From a virus, in the IMG/VR virus record IMGVR_UViG_3300046454_000367, positions 1-44,284 of that record: 44,284 bases of DNA. The stretch is one strand, 5' to 3'. The stretch's first letter is position 1. Each line of letters starts with the position of its first letter. Positions 11,627 to 37,994 of the stretch are shown here, piece after piece. The notes beneath the pieces are model-generated. The model saw nothing but the letters and a program-made list of their open reading frames with translations. It had not been told where the DNA came from and searched no databases. The translations under genes and the position numbers were made by a program.

Positions 11627-12961
11627 CTATATCTGGAAGTCAACCGCGTAAGCGCTGGTGGCGAGCTCGTGCGGGTACGGTACTTTCGGCACCGGCCTGT
11701 CCAGGAAGCGGCACAGCTTCTCCCACCCGTCGCCGATGTGATAGGTAAGCAGGTCGCCCGGGCGGTGCTTGAAGTACTCCCACACCTCCGCGTTGTGGCG
11801 ATGGTAGCGCGCCGCGAAGATGGCGCGGTCGAAGTGCTTCTGGCCGTAGACGAGCTGGTGCATTTTGTGGGTGAACGGCGCGATGTCCCAGTGCTTGCGG
11901 TTCGGGTTCGCCGGGCTCCAGTGCTTCTCCACGCTGTGCAGCCACGCTTCCTCCGGCCGAGTGGTCAGAATGAATTTGGAGCCGGGGTACGCCTTGTCTA
12001 ATTCCCTGAAAAGAATCGTGAACGGCAGATCGCAGAACGCATAATGCTGGTCCACAAGTTCCGAACGGCCGTCCAGCATCACCTGTCGCCACACGTCGCG
12101 CGCCCAGTTCGCCGTTCCCCAGTGGTGCGAATTGATGCCGAGAACGTCGAACGCCTTGTCGAGCGATGTGGTGCCGGTCTTGTGCATCCCGATCCCGAAG
12201 ATGCGGGTTGGCAATGGCCCGATCGATCGCTCTCGCCCGTTCGCATTACGGCGGAAGGTCCCCATGCCTACCTGGCCGAAGTTGGCGACGGCGTTCACCG
12301 GACTGCACGACGCACGCTCGCCGTACGCCACGCCAGCCACTTCTGGATACTCGCGAAACCGCGCCTTATCGGTGTGCTTGACTGCGTGCAGATATCGCGG
12401 ATCGATCTCTGCATCTTCAATTCCGAGCATGCGCAGGCGGATCTTAAAGTCCTCATCGTCTGGCCCCCATGTGTTGTATTTCTCGTCGTAGCCGCCGGCC
12501 ATGAGAAAAGCGTTGCGGGTGACTGCCATGCGCCCGTTGATGCCGCGGGCCATCTGGCCTTTCACCATGTTGGCCCACATGAAATATTCGTCTCCGCAGT
12601 ATGCCGCGGTCGCAAACTCGCGCCGCAGGTAATCCGCAAAGCCGCGCCCGGCGAAGTTGTCAGCGTCGAGGTTCACCAGGATATCTGCGCCTTCCGCGAT
12701 GCCGAGACGGTGCGCCATATTCTTTGCATGGGCCATCTGGAATCGTTCTGGCTCGAATGTGGAGTAGAAAATTAGTTGACCTGAAGCGATCTCCGCTCTG
12801 TGTTTTTCCATCACATAGCGCACTAAGTCGTCGTCGCTGTTGTAGTTCAGCAGAACGAAAGTCGCGTCGGGATTGTCCGCGATGTTCTGCGGCAGAGTCT
12901 GTTTGATGTGGTACGCACGCCCTTTACAGGTCGTACAGAAAACTACCTTCGGTGTGTTCAT
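11627..12961 (-). CDS. Glycosyltransferase family 2 / sulfotransferase fusion
   Basis: 444 residues from ATG at 12961 (AGGAG 7 bases upstream). The N-terminal half is a GT-A glycosyltransferase: FCTTCKGRAYHIKQTLPQNI, a metal-binding DAD in ILVNLDADNF, and the acceptor motif GGYDEKYNTWGPDDEDF. The C-terminal half (from about residue 255) is a PAPS-dependent sulfotransferase: the 5'-phosphosulfate loop is GIGMHKTGTTSLDKAF and the 3'-phosphate region is KFILTTRPEEAWLHS. One polypeptide could add a sugar and then sulfate a glycan. Its ribosome binding site lies in a long inverted repeat (12963-13042). Confidence 0.9.
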   Translation of the reverse strand: MNTPKVVFCTTCKGRAYHIKQTLPQNIADNPDATFVLLNYNSDDDLVRYVMEKHRAEIASGQLIFYSTFEPERFQMAHAKNMAHRLGIAEGADILVNLDADNFAGRGFADYLRREFATAAYCGDEYFMWANMVKGQMARGINGRMAVTRNAFLMAGGYDEKYNTWGPDDEDFKIRLRMLGIEDAEIDPRYLHAVKHTDKARFREYPEVAGVAYGERASCSPVNAVANFGQVGMGTFRRNANGRERSIGPLPTRIFGIGMHKTGTTSLDKAFDVLGINSHHWGTANWARDVWRQVMLDGRSELVDQHYAFCDLPFTILFRELDKAYPGSKFILTTRPEEAWLHSVEKHWSPANPNRKHWDIAPFTHKMHQLVYGQKHFDRAIFAARYHRHNAEVWEYFKHRPGDLLTYHIGDGWEKLCRFLDRPVPKVPYPHELATSAYAVDFQI

Positions 12962-12962
12962 T

Positions 12963-13042
12963 CGCAAGCTCCTGAGCACCCAAGCCTTGACGCTGGCCCG
13001 CGCGAACCGGAGAGTAAGCGCGGGCCAGCCAGGGAGCTTGCG
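12963..13042 (-). promoter_or_regulatory. Structured mRNA leader, nested inverted repeats
   Basis: Outer perfect 10-bp arms (12963-12972 with 13033-13042, GGAGCTTGCG / CGCAAGCTCC) flank an inner perfect 11-bp stem (12993-13003 with 13018-13028, CTGGCCCGCGC / GCGCGGGCCAG) with a 14-base loop. The outer arm next to the gene contains its ribosome binding site, so pairing would block translation. No T run follows. This looks like a cis-acting RNA switch or thermosensor-like leader. Confidence 0.65.
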
Positions 13043-13099: not shown

Positions 13100-13843
13100 A
13101 TGATTGAGTTTCACGCGCTGCGCGCGTTCCTCGGCCTGATGCAGTTGTCAATCGTGGCGCTGCTGATTCACCGCGACATCGGGTATCTGCTGCGCTTCGG
13201 AATTCTGATGTTCGCGAGCGCGGCAATGAATCTGGCACCGGCGCACCCAGAAGACGAGACGTGGAAATACTTCCTGCAGATGCCCGCTTACCTGGTAATC
13301 CTCGCACTTACCGCAGACGCCACCGTTGAAATATTCGCCTTCCTGCGGCGCCGGACCTTCATCGAAGAACGCCTGGCGCTGCTGACCTTCGCCGGCATCG
13401 TCGGGATTATCCCGGTGTGGATCTGCTGGACGTGGCCCGGGGAAAACTGGTATCAGTCCGCGATGCTGCTGCGGCAGTACTTCCTGATGTGGTTGACCGC
13501 GGGATTCCTGACCGCCTGGTGCTGGCTGCGCGGCGTGCGGCCGATCCACATGAGCCAGCACATCGAGGATCATGGCGAGCTCTGGGCGCTGTGGCTGATG
13601 TCGTCTGCCGTCTTGGCGTCAACCACGAAATGGGGAGTGCTCTGGAAGTTCGCGCAATGGCAGGGAGGAGACACGCTCTGGCGCATTGCAACCGACGTCG
13701 CGCTCGTCGCTCAGGCGGGAATCTGCGGAGGATTCCTATTCAATCTGAGGAACTGGAAGACCGATGGCGTTGCTGTTCCAATCGGATTACACGGTCCTCA
13801 AGCCCTTGCACCGTCCCAGCTACACCGTCCACTGAATCCCTGA
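13100..13843 (+). CDS. Multi-pass membrane protein
   Basis: 247 residues with about six hydrophobic spans, for example GLMQLSIVALLIH, YLLRFGILMFASAAMNLA, MPAYLVILALTADATVEIF and LALLTFAGIVGIIPVWICW. No family is recognised. It is on the opposite strand to its neighbours. Its last 35 codons overlap the 3' end of the holin-like gene on the other strand. A role in the host membrane (lysis, exclusion or transport) is possible. Confidence 0.75.
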   Translation: MIEFHALRAFLGLMQLSIVALLIHRDIGYLLRFGILMFASAAMNLAPAHPEDETWKYFLQMPAYLVILALTADATVEIFAFLRRRTFIEERLALLTFAGIVGIIPVWICWTWPGENWYQSAMLLRQYFLMWLTAGFLTAWCWLRGVRPIHMSQHIEDHGELWALWLMSSAVLASTTKWGVLWKFAQWQGGDTLWRIATDVALVAQAGICGGFLFNLRNWKTDGVAVPIGLHGPQALAPSQLHRPLNP

Positions 13844-14012
13844 TCTGCCGAAGCTCTGCCAGGAGGAATGCGTTAGAGTGCTCGGTACGCGCCGGGCGCT
13901 GCGTGCGTGCCAGCCGATCCCACGCCCACTTAGCCGCGGCAGCCAGGACGCCACCGGCGAAGATGTGCGTCCAGCCGCCAGGATCAGGAGTCGGGCCGCT
14001 ACTCTCCAGCAT
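13740..14012 (-). CDS. Holin-like / XhlA-like membrane protein
   Basis: 90 residues from ATG at 14012, inside the end of the preceding small gene. Residues 13-32 (GWTHIFAGGVLAAAAKWAWD) are a membrane segment. A coiled-coil region follows (FLLAELRQIRDSVDGVAGTV, then LEDRVIRLEQQRHR) with a serine-rich tail. One span plus a coiled coil fits phage holin accessory proteins. The 3' end overlaps the antisense membrane gene by 104 bases. No endolysin is recognised nearby. Confidence 0.6.
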   Translation of the reverse strand: MLESSGPTPDPGGWTHIFAGGVLAAAAKWAWDRLARTQRPARTEHSNAFLLAELRQIRDSVDGVAGTVQGLEDRVIRLEQQRHRSSSSSD

Positions 14013-14127
14013 CGCCGCCAGGACCTTCAGGCGGGTCCTTCGGCTTATCGGCGTCCGCGGTGCTCGGCAGCGGATCGGATTTCTTTTGTTCGCATTCGTC
14101 GTCGTCGTGTTTGTGCGTGTGCGGCAT
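13999..14127 (-). CDS. Small His/Asp-rich protein
   Basis: 42 residues, MPHTHKHDDDECEQKK at the N-terminus followed by a Pro/Gly/Asp-rich tail. GGAGG lies 5 bases before the ATG at 14127, and the TAG overlaps the start of the holin-like gene. The cluster of His, Asp and Cys could bind metal. No family is recognised. Confidence 0.6.
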   Translation of the reverse strand: MPHTHKHDDDECEQKKSDPLPSTADADKPKDPPEGPGGDAGE

Positions 14128-15569: not shown

Positions 15570-16503
15570 TGCCCGTCCCCGATCCCGTCACCAGAATCAC
15601 CAGTTGCAGCGACGAATAGAATTGCGAATGCCACGTGATGCACTCGACATCGAACGGATTGCCGCTGCTGTCGGTGTCCTCGAAAGTCTGTACCTGATCC
15701 AGCGTCGTCGCCGCCGTCTGAAGAAAAGCGTCCCAGAGCTGGCCGCGAAGATTCCAGCCCCCCCACCCGAGGAACGCGTCGATATTTAGCACCGCGTGAG
15801 CGGAGTAAGTGATCGCGGGCCACGCGATCTGGTCCGTTCCGAAAGGATTGTTGAAGTCGGCGAGCGGGAAAAGCGTCAGGTAGCCGCTGTCCGGACTGAT
15901 GGTGTTGTCATCCGGCGCGATGACGATAACCCCGTTCAGGTAGTACGACATGCATGCGTAGCAGGTAGCCTGTGAGCGGAAGTCGAACGCCCACTGTGAG
16001 CCGCCGCAAGACCACCAGATATCGGTGATCACCGGAGGCATGAGCCCAGCGACGCATGGCCCGCTCGCCGTCGGCATCGCCGGAATACCGCAAGCCCAAG
16101 AACTCCAGCCGCCGCCGTCGTTGCCGGGTTCGGAGATAAACGCCTGCGCCCGTCCGATCACAGTTTGGAACTCTGAGTAAGTCCCATTGCTCAGAATCTG
16201 GTATGGGAAGCTGACGACCGTTTCCGCCACGTTCATCACCTGAAGCACCGGCCCGCGGAAGTTATACAGCCCAACGGCAGGATGGTCGATCTTGTAACTT
16301 ACATCGTCCTGAACGAGCAGCCGGGCGGTGTAGCCAGCCGGATCCGGCGATGTCATCAGGTAAACGAATCCTCCGGTGATATGGCGCACCAGCGTCCAGC
16401 CTGCCGCGATCAACTGAAGCTCCAGATCCGCAATGAAGTTCGCCGCATTGTCCGCTCGCAGCGTCCCGTTGATGATCGGAAACTGGCTATAGGCTATCGG
16501 CAT
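15556..16503 (-). CDS. Tail-tip or appendage structural protein, paralogue of the next gene
   Basis: 315 residues. The N-terminal pattern NAANFIADLELQLIAAGWTL is shared with the 455-residue protein downstream. The rest is beta-rich with aromatic-rich stretches (WSSWACGIPAMP and IDAFLGWGGWNLRGQLWDAF). Its ATG lies 17 bases inside the end of the DNA methyltransferase gene. Probably part of the distal tail; no family is recognised. Confidence 0.7.
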   Translation of the reverse strand: MPIAYSQFPIINGTLRADNAANFIADLELQLIAAGWTLVRHITGGFVYLMTSPDPAGYTARLLVQDDVSYKIDHPAVGLYNFRGPVLQVMNVAETVVSFPYQILSNGTYSEFQTVIGRAQAFISEPGNDGGGWSSWACGIPAMPTASGPCVAGLMPPVITDIWWSCGGSQWAFDFRSQATCYACMSYYLNGVIVIAPDDNTISPDSGYLTLFPLADFNNPFGTDQIAWPAITYSAHAVLNIDAFLGWGGWNLRGQLWDAFLQTAATTLDQVQTFEDTDSSGNPFDVECITWHSQFYSSLQLVILVTGSGTGNVAY

Positions 16504-17155
16504 TCGCGAATAGATCCCCTATTTCCGCCTCGACGTGTTCGAACAGTGTCAGGCGCGCCGCCTCCAGCCGCTCTACCGCAATGGCGCAGTATTTCTCCTC
16601 GATCTCGATCCCGATAGCGCGGCGTCCAAGTTGTTTCGCGGCTACCAGCGTGGTGCCGCTGCCCATGAATGCATCAAGAATAGACGGATATTCGGAAAAC
16701 TGGTGGAGCGACCATTTAACAACGGCAAGCGGCTTTTGGGTAGGATGCCCAACGCGCTCAGCATTTGTCTGTGAGATCGAACAAGATATAATGCGAGAGT
16801 TGCGATCCTGATTCGTCCACGCAAGCTCGAAACTTCCCATGCTCGGAGGCGCATCGGGCTTGTACCAGCAGAGCCAGCCCCGCGACACAGGAAGCTTGTA
16901 ATAGTTTCCGCCCCATACCACTTGGGCATTGCCAATGGCTAGGACTGCTGGAAGGAAATCGACCGCCACGTCATCCCAAACCGTAGCAATGTGGCCCGCC
17001 AATCGCTGCCATTTGGTCGGCTGCGCAGCGAATCCAATCCCGTACGGCGGGTCAGTGAACACCAGATCAACATTGGGCAGATACGGCAGGATCTCGCGGC
17101 AATCGCCGTGATAGATCGTGATGCCGTCGTGCTGATAGTAGGGCTTCGGAAGCAT
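16487..17155 (-). CDS. DNA N4-cytosine/N6-adenine methyltransferase
   Basis: 222 residues from ATG at 17155 (MLPKPYYQHDGITIYHGDCR). The catalytic motif is TDPPYGIGF and the SAM-binding motif FMGSGTTLVA comes later, the catalytic-then-SAM order of beta-class enzymes. HPTQKPLAVVKW precedes the SAM motif as usual. I choose 17155 over the ATG at 17173 because the -10 box ends 6 bases before it and family members usually start just before this point. It is inserted among tail genes with its own promoter. No restriction partner is present. Confidence 0.92.
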   Translation of the reverse strand: MLPKPYYQHDGITIYHGDCREILPYLPNVDLVFTDPPYGIGFAAQPTKWQRLAGHIATVWDDVAVDFLPAVLAIGNAQVVWGGNYYKLPVSRGWLCWYKPDAPPSMGSFELAWTNQDRNSRIISCSISQTNAERVGHPTQKPLAVVKWSLHQFSEYPSILDAFMGSGTTLVAAKQLGRRAIGIEIEEKYCAIAVERLEAARLTLFEHVEAEIGDLFANADSL

Positions 17156-27219: not shown

Positions 27220-28542
27220 CTATGATCCGCTTCCGTCGCTCGCCACGGTGGAGCGGCCGTCAATCTGCGTGCCGCCCATGACGGTCACGATCTTCATATC
27301 CGAATCCATCGTGAAGAAGTCTCCCAGCATCGGATCGACGCCGCCGCCCATTCGCTGCGTGTTCGGAACCTTGGTGAAGATCTGCGGCACTTCGAATCCA
27401 TTCAGGAAACCAACCTCGGTGTTCGGTCGGTTCTGGCTGTTCGGATCGATAGTCAATCCCCAGGACGTGTTTTTCTTGCCGCTGGTGGTGCAGACAATCG
27501 GGATGTACGGGTCCATCACCGGGTCGAGATTCTGCACAATCCAATTGTTGGTGTTGACGAACTGCCCCGGCTGCGCGCTGCCCGCAACGCCGCCCGCCTG
27601 CGTGAGGTAGACGTTGAGTTGGTTCATCAGGTTGTTTGCAGTCGCAGTCAACGAAGGCCCGTACCAGAGCTTCACGCGCCCGGTAATCAGAATCGGGTCG
27701 CCGGTCGAATCGCGCATGCCGGCGAGGATGTTGAACGCATCCTGCAGCCCGGCGATGGACAGCGGAGGATTGTTCGATGCCGCCCCGTTCGCCGTGATGA
27801 TCTTGTTCCCGTAGCCCGTGGTGTACAACAAGGCGTTCGGGCCGTTGGCGTCCATGTAGAAGGTCGTGATGAACTTCGAGATGCCGCGGTTGCCGGCGAT
27901 GGCAAGACGGTTCGCCAGATCCTGGAAGATGCCGAGGTCATCATTGACCATCGCGCGCCAGTTGACCGATGTCATGGCCTGGTAGAGCAGCGGCGAGTAC
28001 GTCAGCGCGGGCGAACTGCCGGAAGCGGGCTGGCTAGCGCCGTCCTGCGGCACCGGAGGCAGCAGCGCGCGTTGCGGAGGCGGAGCCGCCGCGTCCATCG
28101 AAGTCAGCGGGGTGACGACGCCGTCCTGCAGGTAGCGTTTCACCAGGCGGAAGTCGCGCAACTGGTGAATCTTCACCAGCGATTTGTTGACGATGGGGTA
28201 CGCCGAATAGTACCCGTAGTACATCCGGTCGAGCACGTCAACGTAGAGCGCCTGGTAGTCGGTGACGCTCATGGTTTCGCGGAGTCCCATGATGCGGCCA
28301 TTGCCCTGGTACAGACCGGGGTAGCGCTCGAGCAGCACGCCGACGAGTGTTTCGTCCGTCGGGCGCATGGCCTGCTTGAGGAAGACGGGATCCAGATTGC
28401 CTTGGAGGCAGTCGGCGTAGAGTCGAGCAGCTTCGACCACTCGCCGTTTGTGCTGTACGCCCGCGTCGCGCCGCGCTGCGGTGAAGCCAGCGAGTGCGGG
28501 CGAGTCCGGGGTGTACGTTCCTGCTGCTGTGAATTCGAGCAT
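27220..28542 (-). CDS. Major capsid protein
   Basis: 440 residues, placed after the protease and decoration genes and before the connector genes. Segments such as YQALYVDVLDRMYYGYYSAY, then DFRLVKRYLQDGVVTPLTSM, and later YTTGYGNKIITANGAASNNP fit a large HK97-fold or Mu-type head subunit. The N-terminal 90 residues may be a delta-like region. Product identity rests on order, size and the strong terminator that follows it. Confidence 0.85.
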   Translation of the reverse strand: MLEFTAAGTYTPDSPALAGFTAARRDAGVQHKRRVVEAARLYADCLQGNLDPVFLKQAMRPTDETLVGVLLERYPGLYQGNGRIMGLRETMSVTDYQALYVDVLDRMYYGYYSAYPIVNKSLVKIHQLRDFRLVKRYLQDGVVTPLTSMDAAAPPPQRALLPPVPQDGASQPASGSSPALTYSPLLYQAMTSVNWRAMVNDDLGIFQDLANRLAIAGNRGISKFITTFYMDANGPNALLYTTGYGNKIITANGAASNNPPLSIAGLQDAFNILAGMRDSTGDPILITGRVKLWYGPSLTATANNLMNQLNVYLTQAGGVAGSAQPGQFVNTNNWIVQNLDPVMDPYIPIVCTTSGKKNTSWGLTIDPNSQNRPNTEVGFLNGFEVPQIFTKVPNTQRMGGGVDPMLGDFFTMDSDMKIVTVMGGTQIDGRSTVASDGSGS

Positions 28543-28946
28543 TAGATTTCAGCCTCCAGAACCACGATTGCGCTCGTGGAAGTCGTCGCGCTGGTGATGG
28601 CCGGCGCGGTCGGGTCGAGATGCCCAAAGAGCGTCCCGCCGCTCGCCTTGCTGATCACGAGCCCCGTGGTGATGTTGGTCGGCGTGTCCAGATTGCCGGT
28701 GACATACAGCTTGTCGCCCGGGTTGACCTGGCTTCCGGTGATCGGCGAAACCACCGTGGCCGCGATCACCGTCAACGTGAAAGATCCGTTGCAGAGGAAG
28801 GTCGTCCCCCCGGTGTTCGCTTGGTAGTCGTCCAGCGCCACGCCGGGGATCGTCCCGATCAGCACCGGATCGCCGCTCAGTACCGTTGTGGGGCAGAGAG
28901 CGAAGCGCCGGGATACGTTCGTACCGGTGTAAACTTGGTTGCGCAT
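28542..28946 (-). CDS. Capsid decoration protein (DUF2190-like)
   Basis: 134 residues, almost all beta structure: VLIGTIPGVALDDYQANTGG, then GSFTLTVIAATVVSPITGSQ, then VNPGDKLYVTG. This is the pattern of DUF2190 head decoration proteins, usually encoded between protease and capsid genes. The ATG overlaps the protease stop. Confidence 0.85.
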   Translation of the reverse strand: MRNQVYTGTNVSRRFALCPTTVLSGDPVLIGTIPGVALDDYQANTGGTTFLCNGSFTLTVIAATVVSPITGSQVNPGDKLYVTGNLDTPTNITTGLVISKASGGTLFGHLDPTAPAITSATTSTSAIVVLEAEI

Positions 28947-30583
28947 TACGCCGCCCTCCCTTTGGCCGCGAACGTGGCCGCATCCTTCGGCAAGCCGAGA
29001 GATTCGAAGATGCGTACAGCATCTTCCTCATCGGTCTTCGCCAGCGCCGCGCGCCGGGCTGCTTCTTCGGGTTTGATCTCGACAGGGGCCGCGCCCATGC
29101 CGACGACGCGCCCGCTGCCGGTCGATGCCGCGATGACTGCGCCGAGCCGCTTCACTTCGGCGTTGACTGCCTCCGCGAACTTCGCCTCATCGAGCGCGCC
29201 GTCTTTCTGCGGGATGTTCTGGAGAACGGTGTCGATAACCATTCCTTTGGCCGCTTCGTGAAGGGTTACGTCCTTTAGAATCTTGGTGGCCGCTTCCCGC
29301 GCATCGCCGCGAATGGCGCGCTCGGTCAGAGGTACCTGCTGTGCGATCACCGGAGCGAGCGCCGCCTTAACGGCTGCCTCTACCAGCTTTGCTACTTCGG
29401 CTGCATCCATTTCGGCTGCGCCTCCTGTGTTGGGATTGGCGGTACGCGCCGCCTCGGTCAAAATCATTCCACCGGCACCGGCGCGGGTTACCACGTCCAC
29501 GCTTTCCGCCCCGGTCAATTCCTTGAGCACCGGCACGCCGTCGCGCATCTTGCCGGATTCCGCGATGCCGGACGCGCGGATCGACATTCCGACGTGCGCC
29601 GCTTTCTCTTCAACCATTTGCGCGTGATCGGCGAAAACCTTCATGCGCCCGTAGAGCCCTGGCCCCTTCGCGTGCGATTCGTGATAAACCGCCGTGGTCG
29701 TGAGAACCCCGGCTAGGTTCGCAACGTCGCCCTCCGGCCGTTGGGATTCCTCCGCTGCGGTCGGATGATTGAGGTAAACGTGGGTGCCAGCCTTAAACAC
29801 TTTCGGGCCATCGCGTTGGAGGACTTCTTGAGGGTAGAACGCGCTGGAGCCTTTGCCGGGAGCGATCAGCTTGATTTCGTAGTCGGCCCGGGCTTCCTGA
29901 AGCCGGATTATTTCCGTTGTCGCCGCTGATTCGGTGAGCTTTAACCCTGTTTCACGTGGAACAGCCGACTCGCTGGTCTTGTCGCTCTGCCATGCCTTCG
30001 GGAGATACTTCGTCCAGCCCTTTTTCTTCGCGATGGCGATGATGCGCGATTTCAGCGTGGCGGCGCTCGAATTGTCAGCGCCCGCGCGCCCCATCGAGTG
30101 AACCGCCGCCGAGATGTCGCCGGGCTTCAAGATCGGAAAGGATTTCCCTTTGCCGGCGAAGTCCCCGCTGCCGGCCGAATCGCGCTCGCCCTTGCTGATG
30201 AAGCGCTCGTAAACCGGGAGTTCGGTGTACAGCCGCTCGGCTTTCAGAGCCTCTTCCATCGCGGCGTAGTGGTCGCCCTCTTCGGGCTCCATCTCGTAGG
30301 TCATGCGCGGCACGACGCCGTGCGCGCCTTCGAAGTCCACCTTTGCGCTGCCGTCGCTGCCGATCTCGTACGGTGCCTGCTTCATGTCGCCGTCGGCGGA
30401 ATACACCACGTCGCCGTTGGCATTGTCGCCGAAGTGATCCACGTAGTACGCCCAGGTGCCGGAGTCCCGGTGCTGGTCGCCAATCGCGCCGGAAAGTGCC
30501 TTTTGGGTGTCGCTGGCAGACATCTCCGCGGCTTCCTGGAGTGCGAGTGCCACCGCCTTATATCCGCCGCGCAGAGTAGCCAT
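28946..30583 (-). CDS. Prohead (capsid maturation) serine protease with scaffold-like C-terminus
   Basis: 545 residues. An N-terminal region of about 200 residues ends in HSMGRAGADNSSAATLKSRI and the AIAKKKGW motif often found beside phage proteases. The protease core has the likely catalytic His in THVYLNHPT and Ser in HVGMSIRASGIAESGK, then LTGAESVDVVTRAGAGG. The C-terminal 140 residues are charged and helical like a scaffold. The gene contains a parS-like site (29948-29963) and probably starts close to its own promoter (30595-30624). Confidence 0.85.
   Translation of the reverse strand: MATLRGGYKAVALALQEAAEMSASDTQKALSGAIGDQHRDSGTWAYYVDHFGDNANGDVVYSADGDMKQAPYEIGSDGSAKVDFEGAHGVVPRMTYEMEPEEGDHYAAMEEALKAERLYTELPVYERFISKGERDSAGSGDFAGKGKSFPILKPGDISAAVHSMGRAGADNSSAATLKSRIIAIAKKKGWTKYLPKAWQSDKTSESAVPRETGLKLTESAATTEIIRLQEARADYEIKLIAPGKGSSAFYPQEVLQRDGPKVFKAGTHVYLNHPTAAEESQRPEGDVANLAGVLTTTAVYHESHAKGPGLYGRMKVFADHAQMVEEKAAHVGMSIRASGIAESGKMRDGVPVLKELTGAESVDVVTRAGAGGMILTEAARTANPNTGGAAEMDAAEVAKLVEAAVKAALAPVIAQQVPLTERAIRGDAREAATKILKDVTLHEAAKGMVIDTVLQNIPQKDGALDEAKFAEAVNAEVKRLGAVIAASTGSGRVVGMGAAPVEIKPEEAARRAALAKTDEEDAVRIFESLGLPKDAATFAAKGRAA
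29948..29963. other. parS-like site
   Basis: TGTTTCACGTGGAACA. Both half-sites fit TGTTNCAC, the half of the bacterial chromosomal parS consensus bound by ParB. It is the only such site I found, and it lies within protease codons (Ala-Val-Pro-Arg-Glu-Thr). No ParA or ParB gene is present in the window. Confidence 0.6.
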
Positions 30584-30594
30584 TTCTGGAAATG

Positions 30595-30624
30595 ATGATA
30601 ATGCGGCACTTAGAAATGTACCAA
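30595..30624 (-). promoter_or_regulatory. Candidate promoter of the capsid operon
   Basis: TTGGTA (30619-30624), 18-base spacer, TATCAT (30595-30600), 11 bases before the protease ATG. No ribosome binding site is visible, so the leader would be about 5 bases. The region is shared with the divergent gene at 30658. Confidence 0.5.
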
Positions 30625-30657: not shown

Positions 30658-30927
30658 ATGGCAGATCAAGAACTTGAGACGAAATGCTCGAAATGCGAGA
30701 AGGATTTGGACACCGAAGGTAACCCGAAGTGGTGCAAGGCGTGCCGCGCCAAGTACCAGCGGGAATACCAGAGTCTCAAGAAAGAAATGTCAGAGACGCG
30801 CGGTTACGCTGCCGGCTGCTCGGCCATGCGCGAGTTTATCGCCGGGTATTTCCAGCAGTTCGGAAACGTGCGGCTGTCTGGCGTTGAAGCCGCGATCATG
30901 ACGCGTAAGGCTGGTCTGCCGCAATGA
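30658..30927 (+). CDS. Zinc-finger-like small protein, plus strand
   Basis: 89 residues. CSKCEKDLDTEGNPKWCKAC gives two CxxC pairs 12 residues apart, a treble-clef or zinc-ribbon site, followed by a basic helix and a C-terminal helix (AMREFIAGYFQQFG). A TAAACT box lies 6 bases before the ATG with no ribosome binding site, suggesting a leaderless mRNA, although no -35 is clear. First gene of a four-gene plus-strand island within the head genes. Confidence 0.75.
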   Translation: MADQELETKCSKCEKDLDTEGNPKWCKACRAKYQREYQSLKKEMSETRGYAAGCSAMREFIAGYFQQFGNVRLSGVEAAIMTRKAGLPQ

Positions 30928-34163: not shown

Positions 34164-35099
34164 TTATTCACTCCCTTTCTGGAAATCTATCGAACAATCG
34201 CAGTTGGGGTGGGCCGTCGGTGCCAGATCGCCGCTCGGGAATTCATCGTCAATCCCGATCCATCCCTCATCGACGTTCTCCATGCAGATCGGGCACGCCT
34301 CGCCGTCAGGATCCCACGCCTTTTGATCGAACCCGGCCTGCACCGCAGTGTAGATGCGCCCGCGGTTGTAGGCGTCGTTAATCTCCGTCTGCGCGATCAT
34401 GCCCGCCCGCGTGTCGCTGAAGTCCGCGAATGTGTCCTGAATCGCCTTGACGATCTGCTCGTAGCTGCCGCCCGCGTCCCAAGCGTCGGCCACGGCATCG
34501 CGCAGCCGATTGATGCTGGTGTTCGAGAAGTCGCCCGTCAAGCGCGTGAGGCTGTTATCTCGCAGCCAGCGGGATACGGCGTCATCGACCGTGACACCCG
34601 ACGCGATGGATGCCGCCGCGCCCGCGATCACCGCGCGGATGGCAGCGTTCCATTCCTCGGTTTCGATGCTGGTGACGGGGAAGCGTAGCGGGTGTATGCT
34701 GGCCGGCAAGATGGTGTGTGCGTAGAGCGTGCCGCCGCTGGACGCTTCAAGGGCACGGTGCCTTATTCCGTTCCCAATTGCATCCGCTGTGCCCTCAGTC
34801 GTTGAGACCGGTTTGGAAGACCGGACTGCGGATGAGCCAAAAACAGATTCTACCACGTGAAAGTTCGCATCAGTTCGCATCAGTTCGCTTTGGTTCGCTT
34901 CCCGCGCCGCGATCTTCGGCTTGATCTCTGCCAGCAGCGCCGCTTCCTGCCGCGCGAAGTAGTGCCGCAAGACGCGCTCAACCTTCTTGCGCGCCGGTGC
35001 GACGATCCGCGCGTGGGACGGGTGGCGCAGCCCTTGGCGCGGCGCGGCAGCTTCCAGAAGCGCGGAGAGATCGTTCGCGGCGTCGGCGAGATCTAGCAT
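34164..35099 (-). CDS. Phage Mu F-like head morphogenesis protein
   Basis: 311 residues. The C-terminal domain has DTRAGMIAQTEINDAYNRGR, then AWDPDGEACPICMENVDEGW and the end APTAHPNCDCSIDF, the Cys/His zinc-binding signature of the Mu gpF/SPP1 gp7 family. These minor capsid proteins act early in head assembly and DNA delivery. The gene follows the portal and two small genes. Residues around EANQSELMRTDANF are encoded by a 10-base tandem repeat. Confidence 0.88.
   Translation of the reverse strand: MLDLADAANDLSALLEAAAPRQGLRHPSHARIVAPARKKVERVLRHYFARQEAALLAEIKPKIAAREANQSELMRTDANFHVVESVFGSSAVRSSKPVSTTEGTADAIGNGIRHRALEASSGGTLYAHTILPASIHPLRFPVTSIETEEWNAAIRAVIAGAAASIASGVTVDDAVSRWLRDNSLTRLTGDFSNTSINRLRDAVADAWDAGGSYEQIVKAIQDTFADFSDTRAGMIAQTEINDAYNRGRIYTAVQAGFDQKAWDPDGEACPICMENVDEGWIGIDDEFPSGDLAPTAHPNCDCSIDFQKGSE
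34863..34898. repeat. Four 10-base-spaced GTTCGC repeats
   Basis: GTTCGC begins at 34863, 34873, 34883 and 34893, with AGTTCGCATC repeated almost exactly. The 10-base period matches one helical turn and is not a multiple of three, so protein repetition does not explain it. It lies inside the Mu F-like gene. Confidence 0.7.
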
Positions 35100-35487: not shown

Positions 35488-37899
35488 CTATTTTTTAGGA
35501 TAGATGGTGTTGAAGTAACCTTGGCCGGGAGCCGTGTTTGCCAACACAGTGCCAGATGTGTAATTGATATTTTTCCCTACGGATTTTGCTTCCGCTCGGT
35601 GTTGGTCAGATAAACGGCCATGTTCGGTAGATTTCCCGAAATGCTCCATCGCTTTTGCTTTGAGCTTTGCCACGATAGCTAACCCTTCTTTTTTTGCCTT
35701 TCCTTTGAGCTGATTAGATTCTTCTTCCTTGCGCCCGGCTTCGGCGCGATGCTCTTTCCCTATAGACAAATGAGAGGCTTTGGCTTTATCGTGCGAATCT
35801 GCCGCAGATGTGTGCGCTTCAGAAGTTCCAAGATTGTAAGCATGCGAAGATGCTGCGTTGGCGCTCTTGCTGTGCACAGCAGCGGCTTCGGCACCGCTCC
35901 CGCCGCCGTCATTGAGCAGTACATGCTCTCCGTTGATTGTCACCCAACCTTCAGTAATTGTCATGTCCTCAGTATCCGCGTTATGGATATTTCTGTCAAG
36001 CCCCTTTCTTTCCAGCAGGTGCAACGCGCGGGCGAGCCGCTGCGATGCTGCCTCGATCTTCTTCACGGGCGCGGACTTCGCCCCGGGCGCGGCGGGTTGC
36101 GGCATGGCGCTGGCGATCTTGGCGTCAAGCTCGGCCTGCGCGTCTTTCTGCGCCTGACGGTCCATCTCGTAGGAGCCTTCGGGATACTGCTCCTCCGCGA
36201 TGGCGTCGCCGTCTTCCACTCCGAGGTAATCGTAAAGCTGCCGTACGCCAGTCTTCTCGTCGATGCCCGCGACCTGCCCGAACTTGTTTCCGAGCGTCAT
36301 CGCTTCGACCGTGGCCTGAACGAGCGCCGGAATATCGCCCTCACGAATCGCGGGGAAGTTTACCTGGATCTCGATATCGCCGGATGTGGTCGCTGGCTTC
36401 ATCGCCTCGTAGACCCGCTTCCCATCCTTGCGCGTGATCTGTTTCGCTTCAACGACTTTGAAGTCATGGCGCACCGCTTCACGCAGAGAACCCGACGGCG
36501 CGCCCTGGCTGACCTTTAGCACGTATCCCGCGATGGTGCACAGATCCTCGCGCCAGCTCTCCTGGAGTTCCAGAAACATCGTCTCGGTCGGACGGTCAAG
36601 GCTCGTCGCCGTCGCCAGATTGCCGGTGCTCACGTCGCCAAGGAATGTCTCCGGCACGCCCTTGACCATGCAGCACATGAGCTTGTACTGCCGCACGTCC
36701 TCGGGCGAGAATCCCGCGCCGGCCGTCTTGAACGCTTCGAGCTTCGTGCCCGGGCCGCTGGCGAACGTGGAACCGCGGCCGGCTGGAGGGTTCTGGTCCC
36801 ATATCTGCGCCGTCGGGCCAACCGTGGTGCTCATCTGCGCCTTGACGCCCTCGAGCGCCTGTTGGCCGCCCTTGGTGGTGAGAGTCAGAGCAAACTGCGA
36901 GAGCGACTGCCGCACGCTGGCACATGCTTCCAGGAACCGCCGCGCTTCACGGGCCCAGTCCAGCATCGGGTAAATGCGCGGGCAGCCGAAATGCCACTTC
37001 GCGACCGCGCCGGTCTTGCGGTGCAAGACGGGCCGATCCCAGAATACCGGGACGGCGTTTATGGTCTTCGGTTGCGCGGTCGGCTCATACCCCAGGGCGG
37101 GATACCACGCGCTTTGAGTCGTGATCGCAGTCGTTCCGTTCGTGGCGTCGAACGTTCGCTGGTCCCAGGTGCGCCGGTAAAACCACGGAGAATCAGAATC
37201 ATCAGGGTCACATACGATATCCGCAATTTCGGTCGCGTCAATCGTGCGAATCGAAGTGAGTCCCTTGTCCGCTTTATCCGAGAAGAATACCCAGAATAGA
37301 TTTCCATCGGTGTCCTTTGACCGCTCCTGCGCGACGAGCGCGTTCTGGCCCATCACGGTCTTGTTGCGCTCGAAAAACTCCTTCAGCGTTTCGTTGGCCG
37401 CGTCGTCGTTGGTGGTGATTTCCACGCCTCGCGCGAAAACGTACGCCGCGCAAACGTCGATTAGGCGCCGGCAGATGGGGTTCTTGAGGTAGTAAAGCCG
37501 GGAAATCAGGATGATCTGCTGAATCCCCCAGCGCGAGAACTCCAGCCATGAAAGGTTGACCTGCCGCCGCCATTCGACGTTCTGCAGCGCGAGTTCGATG
37601 TCGCCGTACGCGCCCTGCGAATCCAGCGGCGTCGCCTCGCGCAAGTTGGCCCCGGGCCGGTTCACCTGGCCGCGCGCCTCCGCAACCAGCCACGGGCCCG
37701 CGCCGGCCATCTGCCGCGCCTCGATCAGCTCCGCGGCGCGCTCCATGTAGTCGGCCTTGAAGCGTTCCTCGCGGGCCGCGGCCTCAGACTGCACCTCGGC
37801 CAGCGCCTGCGACGTGGCGCGATACTCCTCTCGATAGTTCGGTTGGGGGCGAAGTGCGCGGTAAGCGCTGGCGAGCCAATTCATTGCGCGGCGTCTCAT
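35488..37899 (-). CDS. Portal protein with long C-terminal extension
   Basis: 803 residues from ATG at 37899, which overlaps the stop of a micro-ORF (ATGA). The portal core includes NPICRRLIDVCAAYVFARGV, then DGNLFWVFFSDKADKG, then MVKGVPETFLGDVSTGNLAT. It forms the dodecameric DNA gate. From about residue 645 an extension follows: ITEGWVTINGEHVLLNDGG, then a His/Ala/Lys-rich helical tail (SSHAYNLGTSEAHTSAADSH, then KAKKEGLAIVAKLKAKAMEH). The DNA of this tail (35488-35990) looks poorer in G+C than the core, suggesting later acquisition. Confidence 0.85.
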   Translation of the reverse strand: MRRRAMNWLASAYRALRPQPNYREEYRATSQALAEVQSEAAAREERFKADYMERAAELIEARQMAGAGPWLVAEARGQVNRPGANLREATPLDSQGAYGDIELALQNVEWRRQVNLSWLEFSRWGIQQIILISRLYYLKNPICRRLIDVCAAYVFARGVEITTNDDAANETLKEFFERNKTVMGQNALVAQERSKDTDGNLFWVFFSDKADKGLTSIRTIDATEIADIVCDPDDSDSPWFYRRTWDQRTFDATNGTTAITTQSAWYPALGYEPTAQPKTINAVPVFWDRPVLHRKTGAVAKWHFGCPRIYPMLDWAREARRFLEACASVRQSLSQFALTLTTKGGQQALEGVKAQMSTTVGPTAQIWDQNPPAGRGSTFASGPGTKLEAFKTAGAGFSPEDVRQYKLMCCMVKGVPETFLGDVSTGNLATATSLDRPTETMFLELQESWREDLCTIAGYVLKVSQGAPSGSLREAVRHDFKVVEAKQITRKDGKRVYEAMKPATTSGDIEIQVNFPAIREGDIPALVQATVEAMTLGNKFGQVAGIDEKTGVRQLYDYLGVEDGDAIAEEQYPEGSYEMDRQAQKDAQAELDAKIASAMPQPAAPGAKSAPVKKIEAASQRLARALHLLERKGLDRNIHNADTEDMTITEGWVTINGEHVLLNDGGGSGAEAAAVHSKSANAASSHAYNLGTSEAHTSAADSHDKAKASHLSIGKEHRAEAGRKEEESNQLKGKAKKEGLAIVAKLKAKAMEHFGKSTEHGRLSDQHRAEAKSVGKNINYTSGTVLANTAPGQGYFNTIYPKK

Positions 37900-37994
37900 G
37901 CGCTGAACCCCCACCATTCAGAGCAATATTTCGCCAAGACATTGAACCCCAATTTGCGCAGGTTCCATTCTTGCGAGCAAACAAGTCGTCTCAT
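37896..37994 (-). CDS. 32-residue leader ORF before the portal gene
   Basis: MRRLVCSQEWNLRKLGFNVL, ending EWWGFSA, from ATG at 37994 to a TGA that overlaps the portal ATG. A TAAAAT -10 lies exactly 6 bases before the ATG. It may be a leaderless entry point that delivers ribosomes to the portal gene by coupling. The product is unknown. Confidence 0.5.
   Translation of the reverse strand: MRRLVCSQEWNLRKLGFNVLAKYCSEWWGFSA

Follow-up and report, generated by a model that had tools for sequence, protein, structure and literature searches.

What use might a phage that encodes neither ParA nor ParB have for a parS site of the kind found on bacterial chromosomes? The question is raised by a near-complete soil phage of 44 kb, whose IMG/VR record (IMGVR_UViG_3300046454_000367; 44,284 nucleotides, analysed in full and called the window here) carries a 16-mer, TGTTTCACGTGGAACA, with 0/14 mismatches to the fixed bases of the 16-bp palindrome TGTTNCACGTGNAACA and with CACGTG at its centre. 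The same palindrome serves as parS in the chromosomal ParABS systems of B. subtilis, Caulobacter and Pseudomonas, and by sequence the window site belongs to that class. It differs from chromosomal parS in its setting: it lies on a phage genome, in single copy, without parA or parB, and beside head and packaging genes. An earlier note on this DNA had called the site near-consensus, which understates a perfect match, and had put its chance occurrence at about 1 in 10,000 genomes; simple arithmetic for 14 fixed bases over 44,284 positions gives about 1.6e-4, which is close. The runner-up sites in a whole-window scan carry three mismatches. Noc binding sites have a CCCGGG-type centre in place of CACGTG, and this identity was rejected for the window site.

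Table 1. Features of the window, and of two relatives, that bear on the parS site
Feature	Position	Strand	Remarks
parS	29948..29963	.	TGTTTCACGTGGAACA; minus strand TGTTCCACGTGAAACA; 14/14 fixed bases vs TGTTNCACGTGNAACA
545-aa protein with head maturation protease	28946..30583	-	phrog_15531, residues 230-494, E 9e-29
Promoter-like TTGGTA-18-TATCAT, directly upstream of protease gene	30595..30624	-	consensus match; weak
Divergent small gene, 89 aa, Cys-rich N terminus	30658..30927	+	phrog_29282, E 8e-5
Probable capsid cement protein, next downstream in head operon	28542..28946	-	Phage_cement_2, E 2e-4, just below cut-off
Major capsid protein	27220..28542	-	Phage_capsid_4, E 2e-16
MuF-like head morphogenesis protein, upstream in head gene cluster	34164..35099	-	Phage_Mu_F, E 9e-11
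Portal protein with C-terminal extension, head gene cluster start	35488..37917	-	phrog_10963, E 2e-55
Swapped intergenic segment 5' of protease gene	L237 (G020) 13818-14070 vs L239 (G022) 16294-16684		parS in one

The window resembles no cultured phage closely: there is no near match in DNA, and cultured phages offer only remote relatives of its capsid. Plasmid records hold no relative of its protease. Its gene order continues around in a circularly permuted relative of 48 kb, G002, and both genomes are thus near-complete. Besides the genes in Table 1 it encodes a terminase, a YqaJ/RecE-like exonuclease, an ERF annealing protein and several glycosyltransferase-like proteins, some of these named by eye. 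The large terminase gene (TerL) lies about 15 kb from parS around the circle. The weak promoter-like sequence ahead of the protease gene is the one match found, against 0.4 expected. Profile searches found no ParB_N domain (PF02195) in the window or in G002, and no ParA-type ATPase (PF13614) in any of 37 records, the window among them, so the absence of both proteins, as earlier claimed, is borne out, and a self-encoded ParABS system is rejected. Nor was a tyrosine integrase (PF00589) found in the window; an attP site, shared with the host for integration, is set aside on that account. No repressor, plasmid replication or immunity gene was recognised among the window proteins scanned, which are a subset of the open reading frames.

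The site is indeed coding, as first described. Read on the minus strand, it spells GTT CCA CGT GAA ACA, or VPRET, residues 208–212 of the 545-aa protein, in a linker with an N-terminal domain on one side and the protease domain on the other. It is some 630 bp inside the gene and away from the promoter. Four of the five VPRET codons are uncommon in this phage, and the probability of obtaining the parS letters and the T that precedes them, given VPRET and the codon usage of the phage, is about 7e-6. G002 (locus L003), whose protease part is 86% identical in DNA and 90% in protein, has an exact site, TGTTTCACGTGAAACA (0 mismatches), at the aligned position. Within the 16 bp the two differ once, at the free N, which turns proline to serine. 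Homology between them starts 11 bp before parS; upstream of this the protein domains are unrelated. That four synonymous codons are kept is weak evidence alone, because 71% of the gene's synonymous codons are identical anyway. In a distant relative, L231, the peptide, VSRET, is kept but the DNA site is broken (CGTGTCACGCGAAACA), a pattern of the kind that the earlier note had named as refuting.

About 100 further IMG/VR records were gathered by protease, capsid and portal searches, and sites with at most one mismatch were present, over whole records, in 4/12, 7/39 and 8/50 relatives in three sets. A few carry one C-substituted half, TGTTTCCCGTGGAACC. The non-redundant DNA of the family, 1.57 Mb in all, contains 6 exact sites, 15 with at most one mismatch (about 11 if the few records fetched whole as site holders are omitted) and 24 with at most two, these last individually uncertain, such that the claim of enrichment rests on the class of at most one mismatch. 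For 419 control palindromes, made by permuting the half-site letters of parS, the corresponding means are 0, 0.13 and 3.2, and the maxima 0, 3 and 24. Enrichment of parS over permuted palindromes exceeds 100-fold.

Nor are the sites scattered. Ten of the best 15 fall in 5% of the DNA, either in the protease linker or within 1.4 kb 5' of the protease anchor (P ~3e-10). Most of the relatives' copies are intergenic, among them one in the 17-bp gap that separates two genes in G001, and protein coding is hence not the cause of the sites. They lie 79–640 bp 5' of the protease gene in G001, G010, G019/G020, G033, G057/G059, G061, G066, G069, G070, G077 and G079, and in several relatives stand between that gene and a divergent small gene of the 89-aa type. 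G002, G075 and G086 have parS in the same linker as the window, and in five further linkers (L231, L186, L270, L183 and L234) a diverged version with three mismatches is found at roughly that position. Peptides there include IPRGT in L186 and VPRGM in L270. All of the linker sites are in one reading frame, fitting a single ancestral site in a coding linker. The enrichment and the intergenic copies show that selection has kept the parS sequence for more than what it encodes, though many relatives have no site.

Turnover has been considerable. A protease tree, built by a short search with SH-aLRT support only, puts the number of changes at nine or more: a site close to the gene is present in 13 rows and absent from 34, and 3 others show a near-miss in their linker. 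A site here means at most two mismatches outside the near-miss linkers, and the counts are approximate, as some rows in which no anchor motif was found were left out and some near-identical rows were merged. G020 and G022 are about 86% identical, and a parS-bearing segment in one is replaced by unrelated DNA in the other (Table 1). Together with the loss in L231, these changes indicate a site that many lineages favour but that is not essential. The conservation check that the earlier note proposed thus gives a mixed picture: the closest relative differs only at the N, L231 keeps its peptide without the DNA site, and in most lineages nothing recognisable as a site lies near the protease gene, so that the site, though often present, is dispensable.

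Could all of this be chance, or the constraint of a VPRET-like linker, or a short boundary shared by recombination? The diverged linkers, some with related peptides, might be read in this way, and the site does sit at a mosaic boundary in the window and G002 and in the swapped segment of G020 and G022. Against this stand the enrichment over permuted palindromes, the intergenic copies, and the improbable choice of codons for VPRET, and we regard the whole class of explanation as very unlikely. In its simplest form, a coding accident, the intergenic copies and the enrichment lead us to reject it.

Sites of this kind are common beyond the family. Exact copies of TGTTTCACGTGAAACA occur at no fewer than 120 loci in IMG/VR; its reversed counterpart, with the same base composition, occurs at one. 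At the free N, over 178 loci, T is found 338 times, C 101, G 6 and A once; T or C thus fill 439 of the 446 half-sites, as they do in true parS. Since at least 87 of the loci share terminase, portal, capsid or neighbouring structural clusters, they represent phage DNA, and not stray chromosome. More than one parS is present at 25 of the 178. A ParB-like open reading frame accompanies the site at 2/178 loci and a ParA-like one at 0/178, in a search of loci 1–15 kb long with one acidobacterial ParA and ParB as queries, which remote forms could escape. In a Pfam search of whole records, 26 of 30 were without ParB_N and all 37 of 37 without a ParA-type ATPase. One large terminase cluster comprises 35 distinct loci, and in 11 of them parS stands between -200 and +30 relative to the start of TerL, where 1.5 would be expected (P 5e-7); by eye, several of these run from promoter-like sequence to parS to terminase. 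A second terminase cluster has no excess there (1 vs 0.42 expected), and the TerL leader is without parS in five cultured phages related to the TerL cluster.

Some individual loci merit a word. Exact parS sites occupy the TerL leader, without parAB, in L052, L325, L335, L095, L339, L362 and others, and at the TerL-leader loci the 16-mer is unchanged while its flanks differ. In a phi29-like contig of 27% GC, parS at 2786 overlies a possible start (MFHVKQ) of the packaging ATPase (L338:2770-3933, + strand). Arrays with no parAB nearby also exist, of 12 sites in 13.9 kb in L329 and of 5 each in L045 and L101. Pelagibacter phage HTVC027P, cultured on Candidatus Pelagibacter HTCC1062, has a one-mismatch site, CGTTTCACGTGAAACA, between gp31 and gp32 (MN698241.1:16412-16427), near the terminase small subunit gene; neither ParB_N nor a ParA-type ATPase was found in its genome.

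The palindrome might instead be an operator for a different regulator, from phage or host, that shares the parS sequence by coincidence. Sites in leaders and intergenic regions of structural operons would suit an operator well enough. A coincidence would have to recur across unrelated phage groups, however, with all 14 fixed bases unchanged and with the bacterial preference for T or C at the N, and in the window's own family the position of the site relative to the gene start spans about 1.3 kb, unlike that of a classical operator. We think this alternative very improbable, too. A spread of that size would seem better suited to a protein that itself spreads than to one with a fixed operator.

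With a host-type parS, under selection, in a phage that has neither ParA nor ParB, the obvious candidate to bind it is the ParB of the host. The presence of orphan host-type sites in this phage and in many unrelated ones, usually close to genes for head assembly and packaging, suggests recruitment of host ParB, and we consider such recruitment, for whatever use, quite probable. To that extent the proposal of the earlier note survives, with ParB as a candidate binder. The steps we envisage are simple. Host ParB, a CTP-dependent clamp, would load onto phage DNA at the 16-mer, close, and slide across the adjoining head-morphogenesis operon, and its likeliest use there would be to hold back, or to time, transcription of head and packaging genes, or to mark the segment in some other way, rather than to partition the genome. 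That ParB binds, that it spreads and that transcription responds are all three things that we infer.

Local silencing or timing of the head genes fits the positions of the sites better than plasmid segregation does, and that the 16-mer is a parS for host chromosomal ParB, put to this local use, is a reading to which we would give slightly less than an even chance. Enrichment, position, intergenic copies, conservation in G002, orphan status and the TerL-leader sites count in its favour; dispensability, the loss in L231, a host that is no more than a lead, and the intragenic position of the window site, deep inside the gene, count against it. Precedent cuts both ways. P1 and F ParB are established silencers of flanking genes (PMC7333895), but B. 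subtilis ParB at native levels does not silence its neighbours (PMC7333895), which tells against silencing. A broader version is that several unrelated phage groups, each with a parS but no parAB at or close to the leader of the head/packaging operon, have independently borrowed host ParB as a silencer or timer of late genes; we think it less likely than not.

As to the host, there is a lead, and not a result. A distant relative of the portal protein (61%) is encoded in the MAG of an uncultured member of the Acidobacteriia, G102, on a contig of 3.9 kb; the same MAG has two exact copies of TGTTTCACGTGAAACA, 43 bp apart, adjoining canonical parA and parB. The window site is of the same sequence class as these. 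The portal match was found in 1 of the 299 Acidobacteriia genomes searched, this MAG, and the assignment rests on that one binned contig. Searches of genome collections for prophage copies found none by way of the protease and, by way of the portal, one MAG contig.

If host ParB does bind, the phage might exploit the host's ParABS to segregate a plasmid-like prophage, as the earlier note supposed. A parS site is sufficient, in principle, to recruit host ParB; a host with host-type parAB, such as that in the Acidobacteriia MAG, could supply both proteins; and the window and most of its site-bearing relatives have no tyrosine integrase. Set against these, the integrase-bearing relatives G038 and G068 carry sites as well, and among the relatives there is no clear link between absence of an integrase and presence of a site. 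The scanned window proteins include nothing recognisable as a repressor or a plasmid replication protein. Sites cluster at head and packaging genes, as partition would not require, and they do so in several unrelated groups, among them the phi29-like group with its site over the packaging ATPase. Phi29-like phages are expected to have no use for partition. Segregation is disfavoured on these grounds, and we judge it distinctly unlikely.

Host ParB might also bind for other ends: to position or condense the DNA, to shield it from nucleases, to control packaging, or to be titrated. The site data that speak for head-gene control speak for these too, other phages have sites close to their packaging genes, and plasmid ParB, as it spreads, is reported to block the access of gyrase and restriction enzymes to DNA (PMC7333895). 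In the window, on the other hand, TerL is far from the site, and one site alone would soak up little ParB. With one site per locus the rule, and multiple sites the exception, the decoy function that the earlier note had entertained finds little favour. We rate these other uses as unlikely, together.

Phages with partition systems are not new, and those of P1, N15, RedRock and Mic1 likewise place a centromere-like site on phage DNA. These phages encode their own ParA and ParB, however, and rely on sites peculiar to them, an 8-bp repeat present eight times in mycobacteriophage RedRock (PMC7157519) and an unrelated palindrome adjoining parA in cyanophage Mic1 (PMC7156551), whereas the window phage has neither protein. 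Clamps of the ParB/KorB type, once loaded at their particular palindrome, can silence genes at a distance of kilobases, as with P1 ParB and F SopB (PMC7333895) and with the RK2 clamp, KorB (PMC11790492). In each of those cases the protein comes from the same replicon; here it would come from the host. Incomplete par systems are known in phages, too, among them the orphan ParB of Staphylococcus phage Lacachita (PMC10286716) and others in a survey of ParB-CTPase folds (PMC12704722), but these are ParB without ParA, and the window phage has parS without either. In the literature searched, the scope of which excluded subscription papers and preprints, we found no description of phages with an orphan parS of the host type. 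If host ParB is indeed recruited, phage biology would gain a near-universal chromosome-segregation protein as a host factor, a simple DNA motif would mark the phages that use it, and ParB clamps would be tied to the timing of phage genes or to packaging.

Three minor observations may be added. Relatives of the window phage include some with short ParB_N proteins of about 180–200 aa, below canonical ParB size (G075:20437-20697, G076:35962-36231 and G077:43690-43947). Locus L029 encodes a TerL of 1132 aa (L029:4369-7767, - strand) interrupted by what looks, by eye, like an intein-like insert directly after the Walker A motif. And in the window, where glycosyltransferase-like genes are abundant, positions 11627-12979 encode a 450-aa protein that by eye appears to join a glycosyltransferase to a sulfotransferase-like domain.
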